Positions 5,518 to 61,841 of a DNA stretch of 64,000 nucleotides are shown here, one piece after another (the stretch's first letter is position 1; every line of letters starts with the position of its first letter). The notes beneath the pieces are model-generated. The model ran no database searches. It was given only the letters and a program-made list of their open reading frames with translations, and had not been told where the DNA came from. The DNA is taken from the NCBI GenBank assembly GCA_024398965.1, contig JAKSIF010000003.1, forward strand, positions 1-64,000, in the 5' to 3' direction. The stretch is from Fibrobacter sp. (GTDB lineage Bacteria > Fibrobacterota > Fibrobacteria > Fibrobacterales > Fibrobacteraceae). The position numbers were made by a program, and so were the translations under genes.

Positions 5518-7611
5518 TTAATGCACGCCGTTGCCTTCCGGAACGTCGCAGGTTACGGCCTTGCCGCCGATTTCCAACGCGATGGGTGCGGCACCTTCGC
5601 CGGCAGTGCAGAACACTTCGCCGTTTTTGACGGAGAGAGCGATCTTGTCGAAATCCTTCAGCTTCAGTTCGCGAGGCTCGCTGGGAGAGACGCCCTTGAA
5701 CAGTGCGCGGTCACCGGGCTTTGCTCCTTCAGGTACGGCCACCAGGCGGCACTTGTGGGTTTCCGGTTCTAGGTCGCCTGCGAAGAGCATGCCTGCGCTC
5801 ATGATGCCGCGGAGGGGTGCGGGCTTCAGGTTTGCAAACAAAAGAATCATGCGGTCCTTAAGTTCAGAAGCTTCGTAGCTAGCCTTCAGGCCGGAGCAAA
5901 CGGTGCGGAGTTCGCCTTCGCCTGCGTCCACCTTCAGAACGTAGAGGGAAGTTGCATCCGGGTGGTCTGCCACTTCCACGATCTTTGCTGCGCGAAGGTC
6001 CATGGCGGCAGGAACATCTGCTGCGGTCAGGGGCTTGTTCTGCTTGGGCTTGGCCTGCTGCTGTTGCTGCTGGGGCTTCACTTCTTCTTCGATGCGGGGG
6101 AACAGGGGCTTGCCTTCACCGAAAGCTTCGCCACCCTTCATGAGACCCCAGACCAGGTCTTCAGCGCTGGTGAACTTGGTGCCCAGCATAGTAAGGCCTT
6201 CTTCAGCCTTGGTGGGGATCACCGGCCACAGCATGCAGAGGCTGAGTCGCACGGCTTCGGCTGCCACATAGAGAACGGTTGCCAGTTCATCCTTGGCGGC
6301 CGGGTCCTTGGCCAGCTTCCAGGGAGCCTTGATTTCGAAGTAGCGGTTGATGCTACGGACCAGACTCATGATGTTTTCGATAGACTGGGAAAGACGTGCC
6401 TGGGGCAGATCCTGCTTGATGTCTTCGATAACCTTCTTGGCCAGGTTCATCACGTCGTTGGCGGCGTCATCCATAACGACAGCTGCGGGGAGCTTGCCTT
6501 CGAAGTTGGTGAGCACCAGCTTGTGGACGCGGTTCAGAACGTTACCCAGGTCGTTTGCCAAGTCGGCGTTAATGCGACGGACAAAGGAATCGTGGGTGAA
6601 GTTTGCATCCTGGCCAACCACCATTTCGCGGGCCAGGTAGTAGCGGAAGGCGTCGTCGCCGTACTTTTCCATGTAGTCCATGGGCTTTACGACGTTACCG
6701 GCGGACTTACTCATCTTTTCGCCGCCGTTCACCAGCCACCAGCCGTGGGCCAGAATATGCTTGGGCAGAGGAATGTCCAGGGCCATGAGCATGGTGGGCC
6801 AGTACACGCTATGAGTGGTGAGGATGTCCTTACCGATCAGGTGGTAGGTGGCGGGCCAAATGGGGGTGCCGTCGGCAAAAGTCTTGTGGAAGGCGGTGGA
6901 GGCGCTCACGTAGTTGAGCAAGGCGTCGAACCACACGTAGGTTACGTAGTCGCCATCGAAAGGCAGAGGAATGCCCCAGCTAAGGCGTGCCTTCGGGCGG
7001 CTGATGCAAAGGTCGTTCAGGGGCTGGCGGAGGAAGCCCAGGATTTCGTTACGACGGTAGTCGGGAACGATCCAGTCCGGGTTGTTGTTCAAGTGGTCGA
7101 TGAGCTGCTGCTGGTACTTGCTCATCTTGAAGAAGTAGTTCTTTTCCTTCAGCCATTCCACCGGGCGGTGGCTAATGGGGTCGCACTTGTTTTCGTCCAG
7201 TTCGTCTTCGCCAAAGAAACGTTCTTCGCCAACGGAATACCAGCCTTCGTATTCCTTGGAGTAGATTTCGCCCTTGTCCCACAGCTTCTGCAGGCATTCC
7301 TGCACGTAAGCCTTGTGTTCGGGATAGGTGGTGCGGATAAAGAAGTCGTTGCAGATGCCCATCTTCTTCCACAGGTCTTCGAAGTGATGGTAGTATTCAT
7401 CTACATGCTGCTGCGGGTCCACTTCGCGCTTGGCGGCGGCGCGCTGCACCTTCTGGCCGTGTTCGTCGGTACCGGTCAAAAAGAAGGTCTGGTAGCCAAG
7501 AATCTTGTGGAAGCGGGTAAGAATGTCTGCAAGGACGGTGGTGTAGGAATGACCGATATGAGGTGCGTCATTCACATAATAAATCGGGGTAGTAACGTAA
7601 AAGTTCTTCAT
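5518..7611 (-). CDS. metG: Methionyl-tRNA synthetase
   Basis: 697 residues; charges tRNA-Met in the cytoplasm. The class I signature HIGH is at residues 18-21 and KMSKS near residue 297. Domains in order: Rossmann catalytic core, anticodon-binding helices (~residues 370-520), a poly-Gln linker near 530, and a C-terminal EMAP-II/Trbp111-type tRNA-binding domain that promotes dimerisation. The zinc-knuckle region (around residue 135-160, WYSVGEERFFGEDEL) lacks the usual paired Cys ligands. The start is supported by N-terminal alignment with the family; no Shine-Dalgarno precedes it, and a TAAATT box lies 7 nt upstream, so the mRNA may be leaderless. Confidence 0.97.
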   Translation of the reverse strand: MKNFYVTTPIYYVNDAPHIGHSYTTVLADILTRFHKILGYQTFFLTGTDEHGQKVQRAAAKREVDPQQHVDEYYHHFEDLWKKMGICNDFFIRTTYPEHKAYVQECLQKLWDKGEIYSKEYEGWYSVGEERFFGEDELDENKCDPISHRPVEWLKEKNYFFKMSKYQQQLIDHLNNNPDWIVPDYRRNEILGFLRQPLNDLCISRPKARLSWGIPLPFDGDYVTYVWFDALLNYVSASTAFHKTFADGTPIWPATYHLIGKDILTTHSVYWPTMLMALDIPLPKHILAHGWWLVNGGEKMSKSAGNVVKPMDYMEKYGDDAFRYYLAREMVVGQDANFTHDSFVRRINADLANDLGNVLNRVHKLVLTNFEGKLPAAVVMDDAANDVMNLAKKVIEDIKQDLPQARLSQSIENIMSLVRSINRYFEIKAPWKLAKDPAAKDELATVLYVAAEAVRLSLCMLWPVIPTKAEEGLTMLGTKFTSAEDLVWGLMKGGEAFGEGKPLFPRIEEEVKPQQQQQQAKPKQNKPLTAADVPAAMDLRAAKIVEVADHPDATSLYVLKVDAGEGELRTVCSGLKASYEASELKDRMILLFANLKPAPLRGIMSAGMLFAGDLEPETHKCRLVAVPEGAKPGDRALFKGVSPSEPRELKLKDFDKIALSVKNGEVFCTAGEGAAPIALEIGGKAVTCDVPEGNGVH

Positions 7612-7738
7612 GGGCCCAAATTTAGTAAATATTCCAAAGATGAAGAGGCTTGAAACCTGGACCCTAGGTTAGCTGTCTGGATATTCTAAGAAAGAAAAAA
7701 ATATTTCATTTTTTTGTACTATTGCTTCAAAAATTGCA

Positions 7739-7764
7739 TATATTGGAATTATTCCAAGTTGGAA
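7739..7764 (+). promoter_or_regulatory. padR promoter with overlapping TTCCAA-TTGGAA operator
   Basis: TATATT at 7739-7744 is a likely -10. It is overlapped by TTGGAATTATTCCAA (7743-7757) and TTCCAAGTTGGAA (7752-7764), three half-sites in a row. A protein bound here would cover the expected transcription start. The same 14-bp core occurs upstream of proA. Confidence 0.6.
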
Positions 7765-27565: not shown

Positions 27566-27581
27566 AGATTAATGTGGTCCA

Positions 27582-27587
27582 AATATA
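27582..27587 (-). promoter_or_regulatory. tRNA-Arg -10 box (TATATT)
   Basis: ACTATATTTGG on the minus strand, ending 16 bp before the mature tRNA 5' end. Because a tRNA has no start codon, this copy supports reading TATATT(TG) as a core promoter element. Confidence 0.6.
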
Positions 27588-33599: not shown

Positions 33600-34162
33600 T
33601 ATTTCTTGTAAACGTCTTGCTTGAAAATAGTCTTTCGATAATAGTCGAGTTCTGCAATGCTTTCTCGGATATCGTCCAGTGCTTTATGATTCTCCATCTT
33701 CTGGAATTCAGGAAGACCTGGGAACCACCTAAAGCTTAACTCCTTGATGGAACTGACGTCGATGTTTCTGTAGTTCAGCCATTCGGACAGTTTGGGCATG
33801 TACTTGTAGAGAAAACGTCTGTCCTGGGTGATGGAATTTCCGCAAAGCAGGTTTCCGCCTTTTTCGGTGTAGGGCTTGATCAGGTCCAGAACCATCTTTT
33901 CGCAATCTTCCACAGTAAGCTTTGACTTGCGACATCTGTCTACCAGCCCGCTTTGATTGTGATGGCGGGTGTTCCATTCGTCCATTTGCTCAAAGACATT
34001 CTCTGGCTGATGAACGGCAAGAACCGGCCCCTCGGTAATGACCCTCAGGTTGGCGTCAGTGACGATGGTGGCTACTTCCAGGATAACATCCTTGTCGGGA
34101 TTCAGGCCGGACATTTCCAGGTCCATCCATACCAGGTTCGGTGAACTTTTCCATCTAAGCAT
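33599..34162 (-). CDS. orn: Oligoribonuclease
   Basis: 187 residues from the ATG at 34162 (a GTG at 34171 is the alternative). It is a DEDDh 3'-5' exonuclease that degrades 2-5 nt RNA and pGpG. WMDLEMSGLNPDKDVILEVA near residue 12 has the D-x-E pair; the later Asp and the H-x-x-x-D (HKALDDI) complete the site. Removing pGpG would complement the HD-GYP phosphodiesterase encoded at 2.0-4.4 kb. There is no Shine-Dalgarno; TACATT ends 9 nt before the ATG, suggesting a leaderless transcript. It overlaps the PBP gene by 1 base. Confidence 0.92.
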   Translation of the reverse strand: MLRWKSSPNLVWMDLEMSGLNPDKDVILEVATIVTDANLRVITEGPVLAVHQPENVFEQMDEWNTRHHNQSGLVDRCRKSKLTVEDCEKMVLDLIKPYTEKGGNLLCGNSITQDRRFLYKYMPKLSEWLNYRNIDVSSIKELSFRWFPGLPEFQKMENHKALDDIRESIAELDYYRKTIFKQDVYKK

Positions 34163-34366
34163 AGCAGCCACAATGTAGAAACTTTAAAACGGATAAATTG
34201 TGGTGTTTTTGTTGACTGATTGTTCTTTTGGGTAGTTCTTGATTTGATGCATTTCGTCTAGTTTTTTGGCTTATTTATCAAAAATTGACGTAAAGTACCA
34301 TAAAAATCACTTTAACGTAAGTTTTTCGTTTACTATATTTGGTTCAAAAAATTGAAGGAGTCTGAT

Positions 34367-35615: not shown

Positions 35616-35647
35616 GAAAGCGCCTGCATGGATGCAGGCGTTTTTTT
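35616..35647 (+). terminator. fabF terminator
   Basis: CGCCTGCAT/ATGCAGGCG perfect stem with a short loop, followed by seven T. Its T-run merges with the TATATT box of the next gene. Confidence 0.9.
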
Positions 35648-35659
35648 ATATTTGTGCCC

Positions 35660-36598
35660 GTGAAAAATTTGTCGGTACTAATCCTTTCCTTGCTGATGCT
35701 CTGTGCGGTTTCCGTCCAGGCTGCTCCTGGTGATCCGCTGACTTGGCGTGATTCTACCTGGGATTATCGCAGTGAGGATTCTACAGACATCAAGAGTGAA
35801 ATCTCCGTGCCCAGGCTCGCCACCGTTGTGGGCCTTACAGCCACGGCTTATGGTGCCGCCTACATCTTTGTGTTTGCGAAGGGTTGGTGGGGCGACCAGG
35901 GAAGTGATTTCCACTTCGAGAATGACTTTGATTACGCCTTGAATCTGGACAAGTTCGGACACTTTGCTTCCGGCGTGGCCATGGGTGAACTGTTCTACGA
36001 AGGGTACCGCTGGGCCGGTGTATCCGAGTTCAACTCCTACTTGTACGCCGGTTTGTCCGCCATGTCGACTCATATTGCTATCGACATCAAGGACGGTTTT
36101 GCTCCCAAGTGGGGTTTCAGCATATTTGACGTTCTGTCGGGCTCCCTGGGCGGTTTCCTGCCTATGGCGGAGCGCTATGTCCCTCTGTTCAAGTATGTGG
36201 ATTTGAAGTGGAGCTACTGGATCAATTCCAAGGCCTACTATCGTTGGGAACACGCCGCCTCCAATGGAGTCTTTACAGACGACTACGTGAACCAGACCTA
36301 CTGGGCTAGCTTTAAACCGTATCGCTTGCTGCCGGCTGCAGCCCGCAAGTATTATCCTAGCTGGCTTGCTATTGCCGCGGGCCTAAGTATCGACGATGGC
36401 GTATTCATCAAGCATTACGAGGGGACGCCTCATCGCGAAGTCTATATAGCTCTGGATTACGACCTGGAGGCCTTCCGCCCTCAGAGCCGCATGGCAAGAC
36501 AGGCTATCAAGTGGCTGAATTACTTCAAGCTTCCGGCACCCACCGTTCAGGTGTATCCAGAAGTCCACTGGTATCTGCTTTATCCCATCAAGTTTTAG
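35660..36598 (+). CDS. DUF2279 secreted/periplasmic protein
   Basis: 312 residues from the GTG at 35660 (a GTG two codons earlier is the alternative). A signal peptide ends near VSVQAA. DUF2279 (YfiM-like) signature: NLDKFGHFASGVAMGELFYEG near residue 90 and the EI/DIKDGFAPKWGFSIFDVLSGSLGG stretch near 150. The C-terminal half is Tyr/Trp-rich and ends PIKF, suggesting membrane association. Function unknown. There is no Shine-Dalgarno; TATATT ends 7 nt before the GTG, so the mRNA would be leaderless. Confidence 0.8.
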   Translation: MKNLSVLILSLLMLCAVSVQAAPGDPLTWRDSTWDYRSEDSTDIKSEISVPRLATVVGLTATAYGAAYIFVFAKGWWGDQGSDFHFENDFDYALNLDKFGHFASGVAMGELFYEGYRWAGVSEFNSYLYAGLSAMSTHIAIDIKDGFAPKWGFSIFDVLSGSLGGFLPMAERYVPLFKYVDLKWSYWINSKAYYRWEHAASNGVFTDDYVNQTYWASFKPYRLLPAAARKYYPSWLAIAAGLSIDDGVFIKHYEGTPHREVYIALDYDLEAFRPQSRMARQAIKWLNYFKLPAPTVQVYPEVHWYLLYPIKF

Positions 36599-40145: not shown

Positions 40146-40174
40146 TTGACGATTTTCTTTTTGTAGTTTACATT
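40146..40174 (+). promoter_or_regulatory. Promoter of the UvrD-family helicase gene
   Basis: TTGACG (40146-40151), a 17-bp spacer and TACATT (40169-40174) make a near-consensus sigma-70 type promoter. The ATG is 8 nt beyond the -10, so the transcript would start at or within a few bases of the ATG. Confidence 0.7.
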
Positions 40175-40182
40175 TGTGCACT

Positions 40183-42549
40183 ATGAACGCGGATTTTAAG
40201 TCAGCTCCCGATTTTCAGAAAATGCTTGATTCCTTAGATGCGGAACAGCGCCTTGCCGTAGAGACTACGGAGGGTTTTGTTCGCGTGATTGCGGGGGCTG
40301 GTTCAGGCAAGACCCGTACGCTAACCCATCGTTACCTGTATCTGGCCAAGGAACTGGGAATTTCCCCCGGCAACATTCTTTGCGTAACCTTTACCAACAA
40401 GGCTGCCGGCGAAATGAAGTCCCGTATCCGTACTATGTTGAAGGGTGACGATTCCGGCTACATTTCCACGTTCCATGGCTTTTGTGTTCAGTTTTTGCGT
40501 GAAGATATCCATGTGCTGAACTATCCCAAGGAATTCATGATCCTGGATGAGGACGACCAGAAATCCCTGCTGAAGAAGGCTTATGCCGAACTGGGCTTGC
40601 ACCTGAACGACCTGAAGATCAGTAGCGTCATGGATTTTATCGGTGGTCGCAAGGCCATGGAAACAGATTATGTCTCCATGTTCGCTGAAAAGGATGGCGA
40701 GGCCCTGCTGGAATTGATTGATTCTGCGCCAGACAAGTGGCACAAGGTTTATTACCGTTACCTTTATGAGCAGCGCAAGAACTTTGCCCTAGATTTTGAC
40801 GATCTTATCCTGGTGACGTTGTATATCCTGAAGCGATTCCCGGAGAAATTGGAAAAATGGGCCAAGCGCATGATGTATATCATGGTGGATGAATTCCAGG
40901 ACATTGACGGTCAGCAATACCAGTTGGCAGAACTGCTTAGCAGTTACCACAAGAACCTGTTTGTGGTTGGTGACCCGGACCAGACCATTTACACCTGGCG
41001 CGGCGCCGATGTAAACCGTATTCTTGACTTTGACCGCCATCATGAAGGCTGCAAGACTATTCTTCTGCAGAACAATTACCGCTCTACGCCTAGCATTTTA
41101 AAGGTCCCGGATTCTGTCATCAAGAATAACGAATTCCGTATCCAGAAGGTTTTGAAGCCCGTGCGTGCCGGTGGCAAGACTCCTGTTTTCTACCACGCCA
41201 AGAATACCCGTAAGGAAGCGGAGTGGATTGTTGAACGTGTCCAGCAGGCGGTGGAAAACGGGGTGGACTACAAGGATATCGCGGTTCTGTACCGCATGCA
41301 TTCCCAGTCCCGTTCTGTTGAAGAAGCCTTGATGAGTGCTGAAATTCCTTACAAGGTCTATAGCGGTATCGGTTTCTACCAGCGCCAGGAAGTGAAGGAT
41401 GTGCTTTGCTATCTGCGTATGCTTGTGTATGCCGATGACCTAAGCTTTATGCGTGTGGTGAATACGCCCAAGCGCATGTTCGGTCCCAAGAAGCAGGCAG
41501 TCTTGCAGAGTTATGCGGCTAGCCGTGGGCTCTCTCTTTACGACGCCCTGCTTGAAATCTATGTGGCTGCCGAGGCGGAAAATGCCGCCGTGGAGAATAC
41601 GGAAGATAAGCCGGAGCTGGACTGTGCCGCCTTCATGGCCCGTACCAAGGTAGGGGAGTTTGTAAAGCTTATCGAGAAGTTCCGTTCTTCCTATAAGGAC
41701 ATGGCTGTTAGCGATGTACTGACCAAGATGCTTCGCGAATCGGGCTACGAGGAAATGCTCCGCCTGGATGGAGACGATGACCGACTTAGCAATCTTGCTG
41801 AATTGAAGCAGGGTGTCATGGAGTTCGAAAAGAATTTCGAGGAAGACGCTACCCTGGATGAGTATCTGCAAAACATCGTGCTGTTTACCAATGCGGATAC
41901 GGATGGTTCCGCTGACGCTAATTCCGAAAGTGGTGACGCCGCCGAAAATGCCCGCAAGAATAAAATCCAGCTTATGACCATCCACAACGCCAAGGGGCTG
42001 GAGTTCCCCTATGTGTTTGTTTGCGGGCTGAATGAAGGTTGTTTCCCGGTGAAGCGGGTAAAGAACAAAATCCAGCTAGAAGAGGAGCGTAGGCTTGCTT
42101 ATGTGGCCTTTACCCGCGCCGAGAATGTCCTTTGCATGAGTGATGCCGAAGACAGCGCCGGTGGCGATGTGCAGTGCCGTTATCCGTCTCGGTTCTTGTT
42201 GGAAATGAACATGGACGAACTGGATATTGCCCGCGGCTTCAGCGACGAATGGTACCAGGAGGCCCGCAAGCACATTGCCCAGGTAGATAGCGAGCGCGAA
42301 TTGAACGAAAGTCTAGATAATCTTGATTTAGACGGATCCGGTGTGGATGGGGTTTCTGGCAAAAAGGCTCCTATGGCCCAGTTTGCCGAGGGTGATCGCG
42401 TGTTCCACAAGATCATGGGTGAGGGAACCGTGGTTGGCGTTGATACGGAGAACTTCTATTACGAAATCAAATTTGACAAGATTACCACCCACAGGGCAAT
42501 CCAATTCGACTATCCGCTACAACGGATAGATTCTTCAGACGAAGAATAA
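40183..42549 (+). CDS. UvrD/PcrA/Rep-type superfamily 1A DNA helicase
   Basis: 788 residues. The helicase motifs appear in order: AGAGSGKT (Walker A, near residue 40), FTNKAAGEM (Ia), VDEFQDID (II, Walker B), GDPDQTIYTWRGAD (III), NNYRST (IV), TIHNAKGLEFPYV (V) and VAFTRAENVL (VI). It would unwind DNA 3'-5' in repair and replication restart. The C-terminal ~80 residues end with GDRVFHKIMGEGTVVGV, the small Tudor-like module common in PcrA/UvrD. Start at the ATG; upstream TTG has no support. No Shine-Dalgarno; likely leaderless. Confidence 0.93.
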   Translation: MNADFKSAPDFQKMLDSLDAEQRLAVETTEGFVRVIAGAGSGKTRTLTHRYLYLAKELGISPGNILCVTFTNKAAGEMKSRIRTMLKGDDSGYISTFHGFCVQFLREDIHVLNYPKEFMILDEDDQKSLLKKAYAELGLHLNDLKISSVMDFIGGRKAMETDYVSMFAEKDGEALLELIDSAPDKWHKVYYRYLYEQRKNFALDFDDLILVTLYILKRFPEKLEKWAKRMMYIMVDEFQDIDGQQYQLAELLSSYHKNLFVVGDPDQTIYTWRGADVNRILDFDRHHEGCKTILLQNNYRSTPSILKVPDSVIKNNEFRIQKVLKPVRAGGKTPVFYHAKNTRKEAEWIVERVQQAVENGVDYKDIAVLYRMHSQSRSVEEALMSAEIPYKVYSGIGFYQRQEVKDVLCYLRMLVYADDLSFMRVVNTPKRMFGPKKQAVLQSYAASRGLSLYDALLEIYVAAEAENAAVENTEDKPELDCAAFMARTKVGEFVKLIEKFRSSYKDMAVSDVLTKMLRESGYEEMLRLDGDDDRLSNLAELKQGVMEFEKNFEEDATLDEYLQNIVLFTNADTDGSADANSESGDAAENARKNKIQLMTIHNAKGLEFPYVFVCGLNEGCFPVKRVKNKIQLEEERRLAYVAFTRAENVLCMSDAEDSAGGDVQCRYPSRFLLEMNMDELDIARGFSDEWYQEARKHIAQVDSERELNESLDNLDLDGSGVDGVSGKKAPMAQFAEGDRVFHKIMGEGTVVGVDTENFYYEIKFDKITTHRAIQFDYPLQRIDSSDEE

Positions 42550-43189: not shown

Positions 43190-44560
43190 TCAATCAATAT
43201 AAATTCCTGGCTCGCGGTAGTTTTCGTCGCGGTTGCTGTTGAAGCTTTTGTCGGAAATGCTTTCGGCGGGGTGGGCGGGCCACGGCGATTCCACTTCTTC
43301 CTTGATCTGGGCGGCAGCGGCCTCGCGCTTCTTGTGCCAGGCGGCCAGCTGTTCCTTGAAGGCGGTGCGCAGCAGTTCCATGCCGATGTTTTCCTTGGCG
43401 CTGACCTGAATTGCCTCAGGGTAATTTTCACGCAGTTCGTTACGGCGGGCTTCGTCGCAGGTTTCTACCTTGTTGAATACGCGGAGGCGGGGCGTCTCGG
43501 GGCTGATAATGCCCTGCAGCGTCTTGTGGGTCACTTCCAGATGTTCGCGGTAGTCGGGGGCGCTTCCGTCAACCACTTCAAGGATACAGTCGGCGTGGGC
43601 GGCAACTCCCAGGGTGCTCTTGAAGGTTTCAATCAGGTTGTGGGGGAGCTTGCGGATAAATCCCACGGTGTCAGACAAAATAATGTTCTCGCCTTCCAGG
43701 AACAGTTTACGGGTCGTGCTGTCCAGTGTAGCGAAAAGCTTGTCTTCCACATAGACGTCGGCGCCGGTCAGGCGATTGGTGAGGGTGGACTTGCCCGCAT
43801 TGGTATAGCCCACGATTCCCAGATGGAAAATGTCGTTGCGGTTCTCGGCCTGCTGCTCCCGGGCGTCCTCAATTTTTTCCAGCTTTTTCTTCAGTTCCTG
43901 GATTCGCTTGCGGATCATTCGGCGGTCCGTTTCCAGCTGGGTTTCGCCAGGACCCTTCGTTCCGATACCGCCGTTATGCTGGCGGCATAGGTGAGTCCAC
44001 GCACCTGTCAGGCGGGGCATCATGTACTGCAGCTGGGCCACTTCCACCATGAGGCGGCTTTCGGCCGTGACCGCGTGCTTTGCAAAAATGTCAAGAATCA
44101 AACCAGTGCGGTCCAGCACCTTGATTCCGGGGAGGCGGGCTTCCAGGTTGCGCACCTGGGATCCGCTCAAATCGTCGTCGAAGACCACCATCTTGGCGTC
44201 GTTTTCTTCCAGGGCACGCTTGACTTCGTTTACCTTGCCTTCGCCAATGAGGGTGGCGGCGTTGAACTGCTGAACGCGCTGCAAGAAACTTTGCACCACT
44301 TCGGCGCCGGCGGTTTCTGCCAGGCGGCCAAGTTCCGCCAATTGTTCGGTGGCAAGCCAGGGACGAACCTTGGGAGTGGCGATTCCGACTAGAATGCAAC
44401 GTTCCTTCTGGACCTTATTTTCCTTAAGCCCACGTTCCCCGCGGGATTTCTTTTCGCGGGGGTGGAAATCATTGGAAAATTCGTCGGCATGCTCGCTGTC
44501 GAGCCCTCGGTTGAATTCCGGGTCGTTTCCTCGGTTTCTCTGGTTATCTTGTCTGCGCAT
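43190..44560 (-). CDS. hflX: HflX-type ribosome-associated GTPase
   Basis: 456 residues from the ATG at 44560; the longer open frame runs into the divergent promoter. HflX splits stalled or stressed ribosomes. An N-terminal GTP-binding HflX domain (VVFDDDLSGSQVRNLE, GIGTKGPGETQLETDRR glycine-rich linker near residue 210), then the G domain with GYTNAGKST (P-loop), DTVGF (G3) and NKVE (G4). The first ~45 residues are Arg/Asn/Glu-rich and unusual. TATATT ends 10 nt before the ATG and no Shine-Dalgarno is present. Its promoter is back-to-back with that of yejE. Confidence 0.93.
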   Translation of the reverse strand: MRRQDNQRNRGNDPEFNRGLDSEHADEFSNDFHPREKKSRGERGLKENKVQKERCILVGIATPKVRPWLATEQLAELGRLAETAGAEVVQSFLQRVQQFNAATLIGEGKVNEVKRALEENDAKMVVFDDDLSGSQVRNLEARLPGIKVLDRTGLILDIFAKHAVTAESRLMVEVAQLQYMMPRLTGAWTHLCRQHNGGIGTKGPGETQLETDRRMIRKRIQELKKKLEKIEDAREQQAENRNDIFHLGIVGYTNAGKSTLTNRLTGADVYVEDKLFATLDSTTRKLFLEGENIILSDTVGFIRKLPHNLIETFKSTLGVAAHADCILEVVDGSAPDYREHLEVTHKTLQGIISPETPRLRVFNKVETCDEARRNELRENYPEAIQVSAKENIGMELLRTAFKEQLAAWHKKREAAAAQIKEEVESPWPAHPAESISDKSFNSNRDENYREPGIYID

Positions 44561-44615
44561 ACAAAAATCCAATATAAAAATTTTGAACAGGATTATTTTT
44601 TTATATTGCCCAAAG

Positions 44616-45695
44616 ATGAAAATCCGTCTTACCACAGAGACCAAGAATAGATTGAAACGTTTCCGCAAGAACAAGCGGGCGTTCTATTCCTTGATTGTCC
44701 TGGTGGTTGCCTATCTTCTTTCGTTGACCAGTCCTTGGACGGTGAACGACGAACCTCTGGTGCTCCGCTATCAAGGCAAGACTTATTTCCCGGCATTTGT
44801 CCAGTACAGCGAAAAGGAGTTCGGTGGCAGTTACGATACGGAGCAGGACTATGCCAAGCTTTTTGCCGATGTTCGTGAGTGCGAGGAAGATGCCGCCGAA
44901 GGTTTTACCCGCGCCGGGGGCTGTCCCGAGACGTGGGCAATTATGCCTCCTGTTGCACATGATCCCCTGAAGGCGGATCTTGACGATGATGGTACTCCTC
45001 CATATGCCCCCAGTGCAAAGCATTGGCTGGGAACCGATAGCAACGGCCGTGACGTGCTGGCCCGCCTCATTCACGGCTTTAGAATTTGTATCAGCTTTAG
45101 CTTGCTCTTGACTGTTCTTGGCACCTTGCTGGGAATTGTCATTGGCGGAATCCAGGGCTACCTTGGTAAGTTCTGGGATACGGGCATGCAGCGCATGATT
45201 GAAATCTGGTCGTCGTTACCTATGCTCTATGTGGTAATCTTGATCGGAAGCATCTACGGACGAAGCTTCTGGCTATTGATCTTGATCATGGCCGCGTTCA
45301 ACTGGATTTCCTTGAGCTACTACATGCGTGCGGAATTCCTGAAGCTTCGCAACATGACCTATGTGCAGTCCGCCAAGGTTCTTGGCATGAGCCATCGTCA
45401 TATTTTCTTCAAGGAAATTCTGCCCAATGCCATGACCCCGGTGGTGACCTTGTTCCCCTTTACCCTTATCGGCGGTATCGGTAGCTTGACTTCCCTGGAC
45501 TTTTTGGGCTTTGGACTTCAGCCGCCTACACCTAGCTGGGGCGAACTGATGAGCCAGGGCCTCAACAATCTTTACGCCCCCTGGATTTCGGTAAGCACTG
45601 TGGCTGCTCTTTTTGTGACTTTGCTCTTGACCACCTTCGTGGGAGAAGGTGTCCGTGATGCAATGGATCCCAAGTCCGGAGACCGGTATGAATAA
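44616..45695 (+). CDS. yejE: YejE-like peptide ABC transporter permease
   Basis: 359 residues. A first membrane helix (~residues 23-42) is followed by a long periplasmic loop containing LRYQGKTYFPAFVQYSEKEFGG, which is characteristic of YejE. Five further helices follow, with the EAA-type loop near AKVLGMSHRHIFFKEILPNA. YejABEF imports microcin-C-like peptides and other oligopeptides. Only this permease and an ATPase are adjacent; no yejA or yejB is in the window. TATATT ends 8 nt before the ATG with no Shine-Dalgarno. Confidence 0.85.
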   Translation: MKIRLTTETKNRLKRFRKNKRAFYSLIVLVVAYLLSLTSPWTVNDEPLVLRYQGKTYFPAFVQYSEKEFGGSYDTEQDYAKLFADVRECEEDAAEGFTRAGGCPETWAIMPPVAHDPLKADLDDDGTPPYAPSAKHWLGTDSNGRDVLARLIHGFRICISFSLLLTVLGTLLGIVIGGIQGYLGKFWDTGMQRMIEIWSSLPMLYVVILIGSIYGRSFWLLILIMAAFNWISLSYYMRAEFLKLRNMTYVQSAKVLGMSHRHIFFKEILPNAMTPVVTLFPFTLIGGIGSLTSLDFLGFGLQPPTPSWGELMSQGLNNLYAPWISVSTVAALFVTLLLTTFVGEGVRDAMDPKSGDRYE

Positions 45696-51848: not shown

Positions 51849-52205
51849 TTAATGGACGGAAGCCTTTTTCTGGGTGGCGAACAGCTTGTCGTACTCGGCC
51901 TTGCTGATACGCTTGTAACCGGTAGTGATACCACCAAATTCATAGTAGGCGGAATCACCCTTGACGCTCATGCAGTAGGTCATGTTCAGGGAGTTCTTGC
52001 CACAGATCTTGCCGTCTTGGGCGGTTGCTTCAAGATCGCCATTGACATTGCGAATGGTGAAGTTCTGGTTGTCGGTGCTCAACACTTCGAAGATCATGTT
52101 GGCTTCACCTTGCCACTGTCCTACGTAGCTGCCGGCATTTTCACCGCAGGCGTTGAGGAGGAGGGTAGAAAGCAGAATTGCAGAGAGAGAGAGAATCTTT
52201 TTCAT
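51849..52205 (-). CDS. Small lipoprotein of unknown function
   Basis: 118 residues from the ATG at 52205; the longer open frame runs across the promoter of the divergent gene. Lipobox LLNAC puts the lipid Cys near residue 20. The mature part reads as a small all-beta fold (GQWQGEANMIFEVLST, FTIRNVNGDLEATAQDG) resembling small lipid- or ligand-binding barrels. TATTTT ends 7 nt before the ATG, with no Shine-Dalgarno. Confidence 0.75.
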   Translation of the reverse strand: MKKILSLSAILLSTLLLNACGENAGSYVGQWQGEANMIFEVLSTDNQNFTIRNVNGDLEATAQDGKICGKNSLNMTYCMSVKGDSAYYEFGGITTGYKRISKAEYDKLFATQKKASVH

Positions 52206-52252
52206 GTCATTTAAAATAGTATTTTTGAGTGAAAAAAAACATAATGTAACCA

Positions 52253-60522: not shown

Positions 60523-61797
60523 TTAACCGCGAACTTGTCCTTCGCCGCGGAGCACCCACTTGTAAGTGCAGAGGCTTTCTACACCCATAGGGCCACGAGC
60601 GTGGAGCTTGTCGGTGGAAATGCCCACTTCTGCACCCAGACCGTATTCGCCGCCGTCGGCAAAACGGGTGCTGGCGTTTACCATGACGCTGCTGGAATCC
60701 ACGTTTGCAACGAAGTAATCCTGTGCGGCAACGTCTTCGGAAACGATGGCTTCCGTGTGGCGGCTGCTGTACTTTTCGATGTGGTCTGCGGCTTCTTCCA
60801 CGTTTTCCACAAACTTTACGCTGGCCTTCAGAGCCAAATACTCGGTGTGGTAGTTGGCTTCGCCGCCGATGTCGGTGACCTTTGCGATACCTTCCAGACG
60901 CTTCTGGGCGTCGGCGTTACCAAACAGTTCTACGCCACGGCTAGTGAGGGCTTCTACCAAACGCTTGACGTCTGCAGTGGGGAGGGCCTTGTCAAACAAG
61001 ACGCATTCCATGGCGTTGCAGACGCCGGTACGCTGAGTCTTGGCGTTAATCAAGATGTTTTCTGCCTTGGCAATATCGGCAGCCTTGTCTACGTACACAT
61101 GGCAGATACCGTTAAAGTGCTTGATCACAGGGATCTTGCTCTGTTCCACAACTGCGCGAATCAGACGTTCGCCACCGCGAGGAATCACCAGGTCGATGCA
61201 GTCGTTGCGCTGGAGCAGCATGCCCACCAGGTCGTGGCTGGTTTCCGTTACCAGCTGGACGGCGTCCGCTTCAACGCCGTTTTCGGTCAATGCCTTGCGG
61301 AAAATTTCAGCCAGGCACTTGGCGCTGTTCAAGGATTCCTTACCGCCACGGAGGATTACTGCGTTACCCGCCTTAAAGCAGAGGCAGGCACCGTCGATAG
61401 TCACGTTGGGGCGGCTTTCAAAAATAAAGAACACGGAGCCGATGGGCACAGCCACACGGCGGATATCAATGCCATTCTTTAGAGAGCGATGTTCAAGCTC
61501 CTTGTTCAGCGGATCTGCAAAGGCCGCAATTTCTTCGGCGCCCTTGGCCATGGTCTCGATGCGTGCATCGTTCAAAGTCAGACGGTCCAGCATGGAATCG
61601 CTGATCTTGCCGCGGGCGGCATCCACATCAATCTGGTTGGCTGCAAGAATCTCCGGCTTGCTTGCGCGGAGCAGTTCTGCCACGCGGGCGAGAACCTTGC
61701 TGCGGGTCTCTGCACTGAGGGTACGGATTTTCTTGCTTGCCTTACGGGCGTTGTTTGCCAGAAGGTCGGAATATTTCTCTAAATCGACAGTGTTCAT
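60523..61797 (-). CDS. proA: Gamma-glutamyl phosphate reductase
   Basis: 424 residues from the ATG at 61797. It reduces glutamyl-5-phosphate to glutamate semialdehyde, step two of proline synthesis. Aldehyde-dehydrogenase fold with VPIGSVFFIFESRPNVT near residue 110, the catalytic Cys in the GVCNAMECVLF segment near 260, and GAEVGISTDKLHARGPMG near the end. TATATT ends 6 nt before the ATG and no Shine-Dalgarno exists. A TTCCAAGTTGGAA site covers the -35 zone. proB is not in the window. Confidence 0.95.
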   Translation of the reverse strand: MNTVDLEKYSDLLANNARKASKKIRTLSAETRSKVLARVAELLRASKPEILAANQIDVDAARGKISDSMLDRLTLNDARIETMAKGAEEIAAFADPLNKELEHRSLKNGIDIRRVAVPIGSVFFIFESRPNVTIDGACLCFKAGNAVILRGGKESLNSAKCLAEIFRKALTENGVEADAVQLVTETSHDLVGMLLQRNDCIDLVIPRGGERLIRAVVEQSKIPVIKHFNGICHVYVDKAADIAKAENILINAKTQRTGVCNAMECVLFDKALPTADVKRLVEALTSRGVELFGNADAQKRLEGIAKVTDIGGEANYHTEYLALKASVKFVENVEEAADHIEKYSSRHTEAIVSEDVAAQDYFVANVDSSSVMVNASTRFADGGEYGLGAEVGISTDKLHARGPMGVESLCTYKWVLRGEGQVRG

Positions 61798-61828
61798 ACG
61801 CAAAATATAGCTTTTGAACATTTCGATG

Positions 61829-61841
61829 TTCCAACTTGGAA
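61829..61841 (-). promoter_or_regulatory. TTCCAA-TTGGAA palindrome at the proA promoter
   Basis: Reads ATTCCAAGTTGGAA on the minus strand, identical over 14 bp to the site at 7751-7764 in the padR promoter. It overlaps the expected -35 of proA (-10 at 61804-61809). Confidence 0.6.

Follow-up and report, generated by a model that had tools for sequence, protein, structure and literature searches.

Leaderless genes are known in Actinobacteria. In the Deinococcus-Thermus group, they are described as carrying a TANNNT motif a few base pairs before the open reading frame, beside a GGAG ribosome-binding motif. These -10-motif genes are reported to be mostly without a clear -35 element, the box was tested there as a working -10 element, and about one third of the genes of D. 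radiodurans are of this type (PMC12340547). The survey of Zheng et al. 2011 recognised leaderless (TA-led) genes by a TANNNT lying about 12 bp upstream of the start; Fibrobacteres are absent from the bacterial groups for which it lists such genes, and Bacteroidetes/Chlorobi contribute 1 of 37 genomes (PMC3160421). Leaderless genes have also been called rare in Gram-negative bacteria (PMC7366714). In Bacteroidota, sigma-A is described as reading a -7 box, TAnnTTTG; a leader of over 10 nt is given for 87% of F. johnsoniae transcripts, about 3.7% of the 5' UTRs of B. thetaiotaomicron are shorter than 10 nt, and 5.5% leaderless is the value for F. psychrophilum (PMC6847099, PMC7366714, PMC9723704). 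The Shine-Dalgarno (SD) signal of Fibrobacteres is described as less obvious yet detectable (PMC3155529). Among titles and abstracts of mostly freely accessible papers, no report of leaderless genes in Fibrobacterota was found, and the predicted class described here is apparently a phylum-level instance of an established phenomenon, hitherto unreported.

The window, meaning the whole 64,000-nucleotide stretch that was analysed, comprises bases 1-64000 of contig 3 of the 3.59-Mb draft genome of a Fibrobacter sp. (G000). An original prediction had placed eight of its genes in a class with no SD site and a TANATT box 6-10 nt before the start codon. Every box is present at that distance, and seven of the eight read TANATT, the exception being TATTTT before the lipoprotein-like gene. 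The TTGACG element proposed at 17 bp from the box of the UvrD-family gene was found as well, and the AGGAG-type sites noted on other genes are real and clear. The boxes and starts, together with the tRNA-Arg promoter box, are as follows.

7609..7624, minus strand: metG; TAAATT at 7619-7624, 7 nt, ATG at 7611
27580..27587, minus strand: tRNA-Arg promoter box TATATTTG, an independent example of the -10 element
34160..34177, minus strand: orn; TACATT at 34172-34177, 9 nt, ATG at 34162
35647..35662, plus strand: DUF2279 gene; TATATT at 35647-35652, 7 nt, GTG at 35660
40146..40185, plus strand: UvrD-family gene; TTGACG at 40146-40151, 17-nt spacer, TACATT at 40169-40174, 8 nt (TGTGCACT), ATG at 40183
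44558..44576, minus strand: HflX-type GTPase gene (hflX); TATATT at 44571-44576, 10 nt, ATG at 44560
44602..44618, plus strand: yejE-like permease gene; TATATT at 44602-44607, 8 nt, ATG at 44616
52203..52218, minus strand: lipoprotein-like gene (the 51.8-kb gene); TATTTT at 52213-52218, 7 nt, ATG at 52205
61795..61809, minus strand: proA; TATATT at 61804-61809, 6 nt, ATG at 61797

The distances from the end of the box to the start are thus 6, 7, 7, 7, 8, 8, 9 and 10 nt. The proA start is an inner ATG (61797), the longest reading frame beginning at the ATG at 61821. Pfam matches support the names metG, orn (exonuclease), UvrD and HflX-type GTPase; the DUF2279 gene scores 28.9 bits against a cut-off of 28.6, the yejE-like gene matches an OppC/BPD permease and proA the aldehyde-dehydrogenase family, and the Pfam search gave no match for the 51.8-kb lipoprotein-like gene. 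The divergent hflX and yejE-like genes (44558-44618) lie 55 bp apart, with a -10 box at either edge of the interval. In addition, a palindrome, TTCCAAGTTGGAA, which is a possible operator candidate, occurs at 7752-7764 and 61829-61841, upstream of two unrelated genes (the 7792 gene and proA). Within the window, TANATTTG was counted 12 times against 6.9 expected, and 2 of 100 shuffles were equally high; judged from the window by itself this excess is modest, and the test was therefore widened to a larger sample, which decides the matter.

The wider sample comprised 464 kb of the same genome (the window plus 400 kb more) and 400 kb from each of three relatives, one of the same genus (G003) and two of the same class (G025 and G026). 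Genes were called with a home-made finder that uses coding statistics and ignores SD and TA signals; some starts were put wrongly, for example those of orn and the DUF2279 gene. The strongest positional signal before starts consists of SD k-mers. The main test took genes separated by 40 bp or more from their upstream neighbour and compared TANNNT boxes starting at -14 to -12 with 200 dinucleotide shuffles. Among SD-less genes, such a box precedes 38/132 in G000 (shuffle mean 11.3, maximum 25), 24/95 in G003 (7.1, 14), 14/98 in G025 (4.1, 9) and 18/119 in G026 (3.1, 8). Genes with an SD site have it in 2/84, 3/80, 1/69 and 0/72 cases, respectively, a comparison affected by the fact that box and SD can in part physically exclude each other. 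At the level of sequence this supports the proposed coexistence of two initiation modes, the box being concentrated in SD-less genes and nearly absent from SD genes.

The signal is also sharply positioned. In the SD-less G000 genes that pass this gap threshold of 40 bp, TANNNT begins at -14 in 10, at -13 in 18 and at -12 in 10, most neighbouring positions holding 2-7. The suggested check of box distance against SD, carried out over the 464 kb, gave a peak at -13/-12 in SD-less genes, and the stricter TANATT was found in 19/132 of them (shuffle mean 1.6, maximum 7) as opposed to 0/84 SD genes. It likewise exceeds shuffles in G003 (12/95, maximum 5); in G025 (2/98, maximum 3) and G026 (3/119, maximum 3), where counts are small, it does not. 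Control ATGs inside G000 genes are preceded by a box in 182/6070 cases. E. coli has no TANNNT excess (4/81 against 4.6 expected), nor has a genome labelled Bacteroidetes (2/68 against 1.6), which at 61% GC and with SD sites is a poor stand-in for typical Bacteroidota; GC alone does not account for its missing signal, because G026 shows the signal at 60% GC. Summed over -17 to -11 and after subtraction of the positional background, roughly 35/216 genes in G000 and 24/175 in G003 would be box-led. This corresponds to an estimated 15% (about one in seven) of the genes whose upstream gap reaches 40 bp, an estimate that is probably low because some starts are misplaced.

If transcription begins at the start codon, -13/-12 is the canonical position of a -10 box. 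The very probable reading is that, next to its SD genes, Fibrobacter has a conserved class of genes with little or no mRNA leader, whose -10 box is read by the housekeeping sigma factor; as far as sequence can tell, this supports the interpretation first put forward for the window. The boxes would be housekeeping -10 elements with a consensus of about TTTTCTAtaTTtG, a short Bacteroidota-like sigma would read them near the start codon, and transcription would begin at that codon or about 0-4 nt from it. The predicted leader of 0-4 nt would follow from standard promoter spacing. The resulting mRNAs would lack an SD site, and ribosomes would probably engage them through the 5'-terminal AUG. The coexisting mode would comprise SD-led genes with a promoter about 25-60 nt upstream and SD-led genes inside operons.

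Comparison of orthologues illustrates how firmly the arrangement is kept in some genes. The metG box lies at exactly -13 in every one of the 16 genus orthologues whose start could be read (G002, G015 and G029 being left out as partial matches and G014 as having no match). Upstream of metG, T-17, T-16, T-13, A-12, T-9, T-8 and T-7 are invariant and the region from -40 to -20 has drifted; the box has the form TA[A/T/C][A/T/C]TTTG, with the final G in 13 of the 16. Outside the genus, it lies at -13 in both f2 genomes and at -14 in G021, G023 and G025, four orthologues have an SD site and two have neither. The orn box is found at -14 to -16 in 18/18 genus orthologues (no match in G016, G022 and G024), one having an additional box at -12; outside the genus it was found in 0/10, partly due to poor starts, several of which in genus g5 were picked too far downstream.

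Other genes vary more. A box precedes proA in 14/17 genus orthologues and 8/10 of those tabulated outside the genus (excluding G022 and G024, at L290 and L288, and G012 and G015, no match), and in G003, G005 and G009 an SD-type AAGGA leader takes its place. For hflX, the counts are 8/14 tabulated genus orthologues and 3/4 outside (excluding L299, L300, L304, L308, L311, L314-L320, and G012, no match). The UvrD-family gene has a near-start box among readable orthologues only in G000 and G010, the latter reading TACATT, 9 nt, ATG. Its leaders in G009, G005 and G003 (L004, L005 and L008) contain a far-upstream TATATT, short inverted repeats and GAGG before the ATG, and the leader appears to have been gained or lost inside one genus. 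Since the orthologues of metG, orn, proA, hflX and the UvrD-family gene differ in state, their sequences indicate that genes do switch between the box-led and the SD-led mode. Among reciprocal matches between G000 and G003, three of five box-led G000 genes are box-led in G003 too, with several starts doubtful; the eight pairs left after filters are too few for a state-by-state test.

The same genes bear on an unlikely alternative, namely that the box is a promoter element but the main transcripts begin about 3-10 nt ahead of the start codon, or the translated mRNA comes from a second promoter upstream, so that the genes are not functionally leaderless. Boxes at -15 to -17 in orn, hflX and part of the proA orthologues fit this explanation, as do the good TTGACG element of the UvrD-family gene and the SD leader of its relatives. 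With their boxes at -14 to -16 (orn) and -16 (hflX), these two genes appear as likely to have a leader of about 2-4 nt as to have none. Against it, the mode at -13/-12 in both Fibrobacter samples would leave 0-1 nt by the promoter numbering described for F. johnsoniae, with T at -12 (PMC6847099).

On a very unlikely alternative, ribosomes would bind the box as an AT-rich, non-SD element, recognised for example by protein S1, and the true promoter would lie farther upstream. Such an element would have precedents, as genomes of the FCB group are described with AT-rich non-canonical RBSs (PMC9581028) and the Bacteroidetes logos are AT-enriched 12-13 nt before the start (PMC3155529). Against it, in the four genomes pooled the box precedes 47/172 divergent SD-less genes, 47/272 same-strand ones that begin 40 bp or more after the preceding gene and no more than 8/114 operon-internal ones. 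A distal TANATT at -60 to -22, moreover, is present in 57/151 SD-led but only 7/49 box-led genes (p=0.0025), and a distal TANWTT in 79/151 versus 15/49 (p=0.009); a third, sparser distal pattern showed no significant difference (30/151 versus 6/49, p=0.29). Farther upstream than -60, TANATT occurs in 17/151 SD-led and 9/49 box-led genes. Because operon-internal genes stay near background and box-led genes are without a distal box, the near-start box is supported as a putative promoter -10 element rather than a ribosome-binding site, and the invariant metG spacing likewise argues against the ribosome-binding explanation.

The tRNA genes, whose promoter box equals the near-start box, speak against a ribosome-binding role in the same way. 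The tRNA-Arg box at 27580-27587 had been cited in favour of TATATT as a -10 element, and among 12 tRNA upstream regions read by eye the majority agree with it, carrying a cTAtaTTtGG box at the distance expected of a promoter; in several, an element resembling CCTTGAAA lies about 17 bp before the box. A tRNA-Pyl called by ARAGORN in GC-rich sequence of G003 (L061:5773-5868) has no promoter box and is probably a false call. In the aligned box-led promoters (38 in G000, 24 in G003), neither a -33 (TTTG) nor a -35 element is conspicuous; the T next after the hexamer is present in 66% and 62%, respectively, and the following G is weak (21% in both). Upstream of the DUF2279 gene, the T-run of a perfect terminator-like hairpin (35620-35640) merges into the -10 box (35620-35662), and comparable junctions occur before metG of G012 (L079) and proA of G001 (L266). 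Terminator fusion was rejected as an explanation, a hairpin T-run entering the box in 5/54 and 4/36 box-led genes versus 20/245 and 7/141 other boxes. Finally, chance boxes in AT-rich intergenic DNA, with which the mild window-only excess of TANATTTG would agree, have a negligible probability and are refuted by the dinucleotide shuffles and the positional background, by ATGs inside and between genes, by E. coli and by the conservation among orthologues.

The 16S rRNA of G000 is incomplete, and the anti-SD evidence comes from three genus relatives, G003, G005 and G013; the 3' end of their 16S reads GGATTACCTCCTTT in each, so the anti-SD is intact there. G000 encodes three sigma proteins of 281-294 aa, with RpoD-family matches below the cut-off. 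The short sigma has 283-287 aa, and the best one in G000 lacks region 1.1, because its alignment to SigA structures begins only at residue 7-8. A segment of the short sigma, KFISYAVWWIRQSI, is shared with a Bacteroidetes-labelled sigma, E. coli having KFSTYATWWIRQAI instead. The Bacteroidota-type trait, that is, absence of region 1.1 together with substitutions in regions 2.3-2.4, was found. In the genus genomes searched for sigma (G000 and G013), short sigmas only were seen; in G026 (L321), short Bacteroidota-like sigmas occur together with an E. coli-type RpoD of 519 aa.

The class is functionally mixed. Of the 38 box-led G000 genes, 35 were searched against Pfam (30 of 33 in the sampled loci and five in the window), and the matches include a release factor, MutL, a histidine-biosynthesis protein, metG, glycosyltransferases, radical SAM and ABC proteins. 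Three are DUF4423 proteins, members of a paralogous, regulator-like Fibrobacter family which we take to be TIGR02147. A blastp search of both Fibrobacter samples yielded ten DUF4423-like genes (for example L041:1881-2708, L047:11895-12749 and L042:18674-19531, with seven more), of which 7/10 have a box at -17 to -11 and 0/10 an SD site.

These features allow a tentative and rather speculative suggestion. Fibrobacterota may represent a present-day intermediate stage within the FCB group, with a dual SD and leaderless start on a Bacteroidota-type sigma and box; promoters might have reached start codons before Bacteroidota dropped SD, and the leaderless genes, including most DUF4423 genes, might form a separately tunable translation programme. 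Fibrobacter appears to break two generalisations, the rarity of leaderless genes in Gram-negative bacteria and the AT-rich non-SD sites of the FCB group, and annotation of start codons and promoters in these fibre-degrading bacteria should therefore model leaderless genes. The inner-ATG start of proA is an example in the window. As a Gram-negative anaerobe, Fibrobacter would also allow the two initiation modes to be compared, and the conserved spacing of box, 7 nt and ATG is a candidate for expression tools.

In comparison with known systems, the metG box fits the Bacteroidota form TAHHTTTG, and a short sigma without region 1.1 is shared with that phylum. Bacteroidota are, however, mostly leadered and without SD, whereas in Fibrobacter the SD mode and the predicted leaderless mode both appear. 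The shuffling logic of the present test is shared with the TA-led analysis of Zheng et al. 2011 as described there (PMC3160421). In Deinococcus-Thermus, TANNNT likewise stands before the start and coexists with a GGAG motif, most of the -10-motif genes being without a clear -35 element. The share there is about one third of genes in D. radiodurans, compared with the estimate for Fibrobacter of about 15% among genes whose upstream gap is 40 bp or more. The predicted Fibrobacter promoter box is more AT-rich than that of Deinococcus-Thermus, combining TAtaTTtG and a T-tract with a short Bacteroidota-like sigma.
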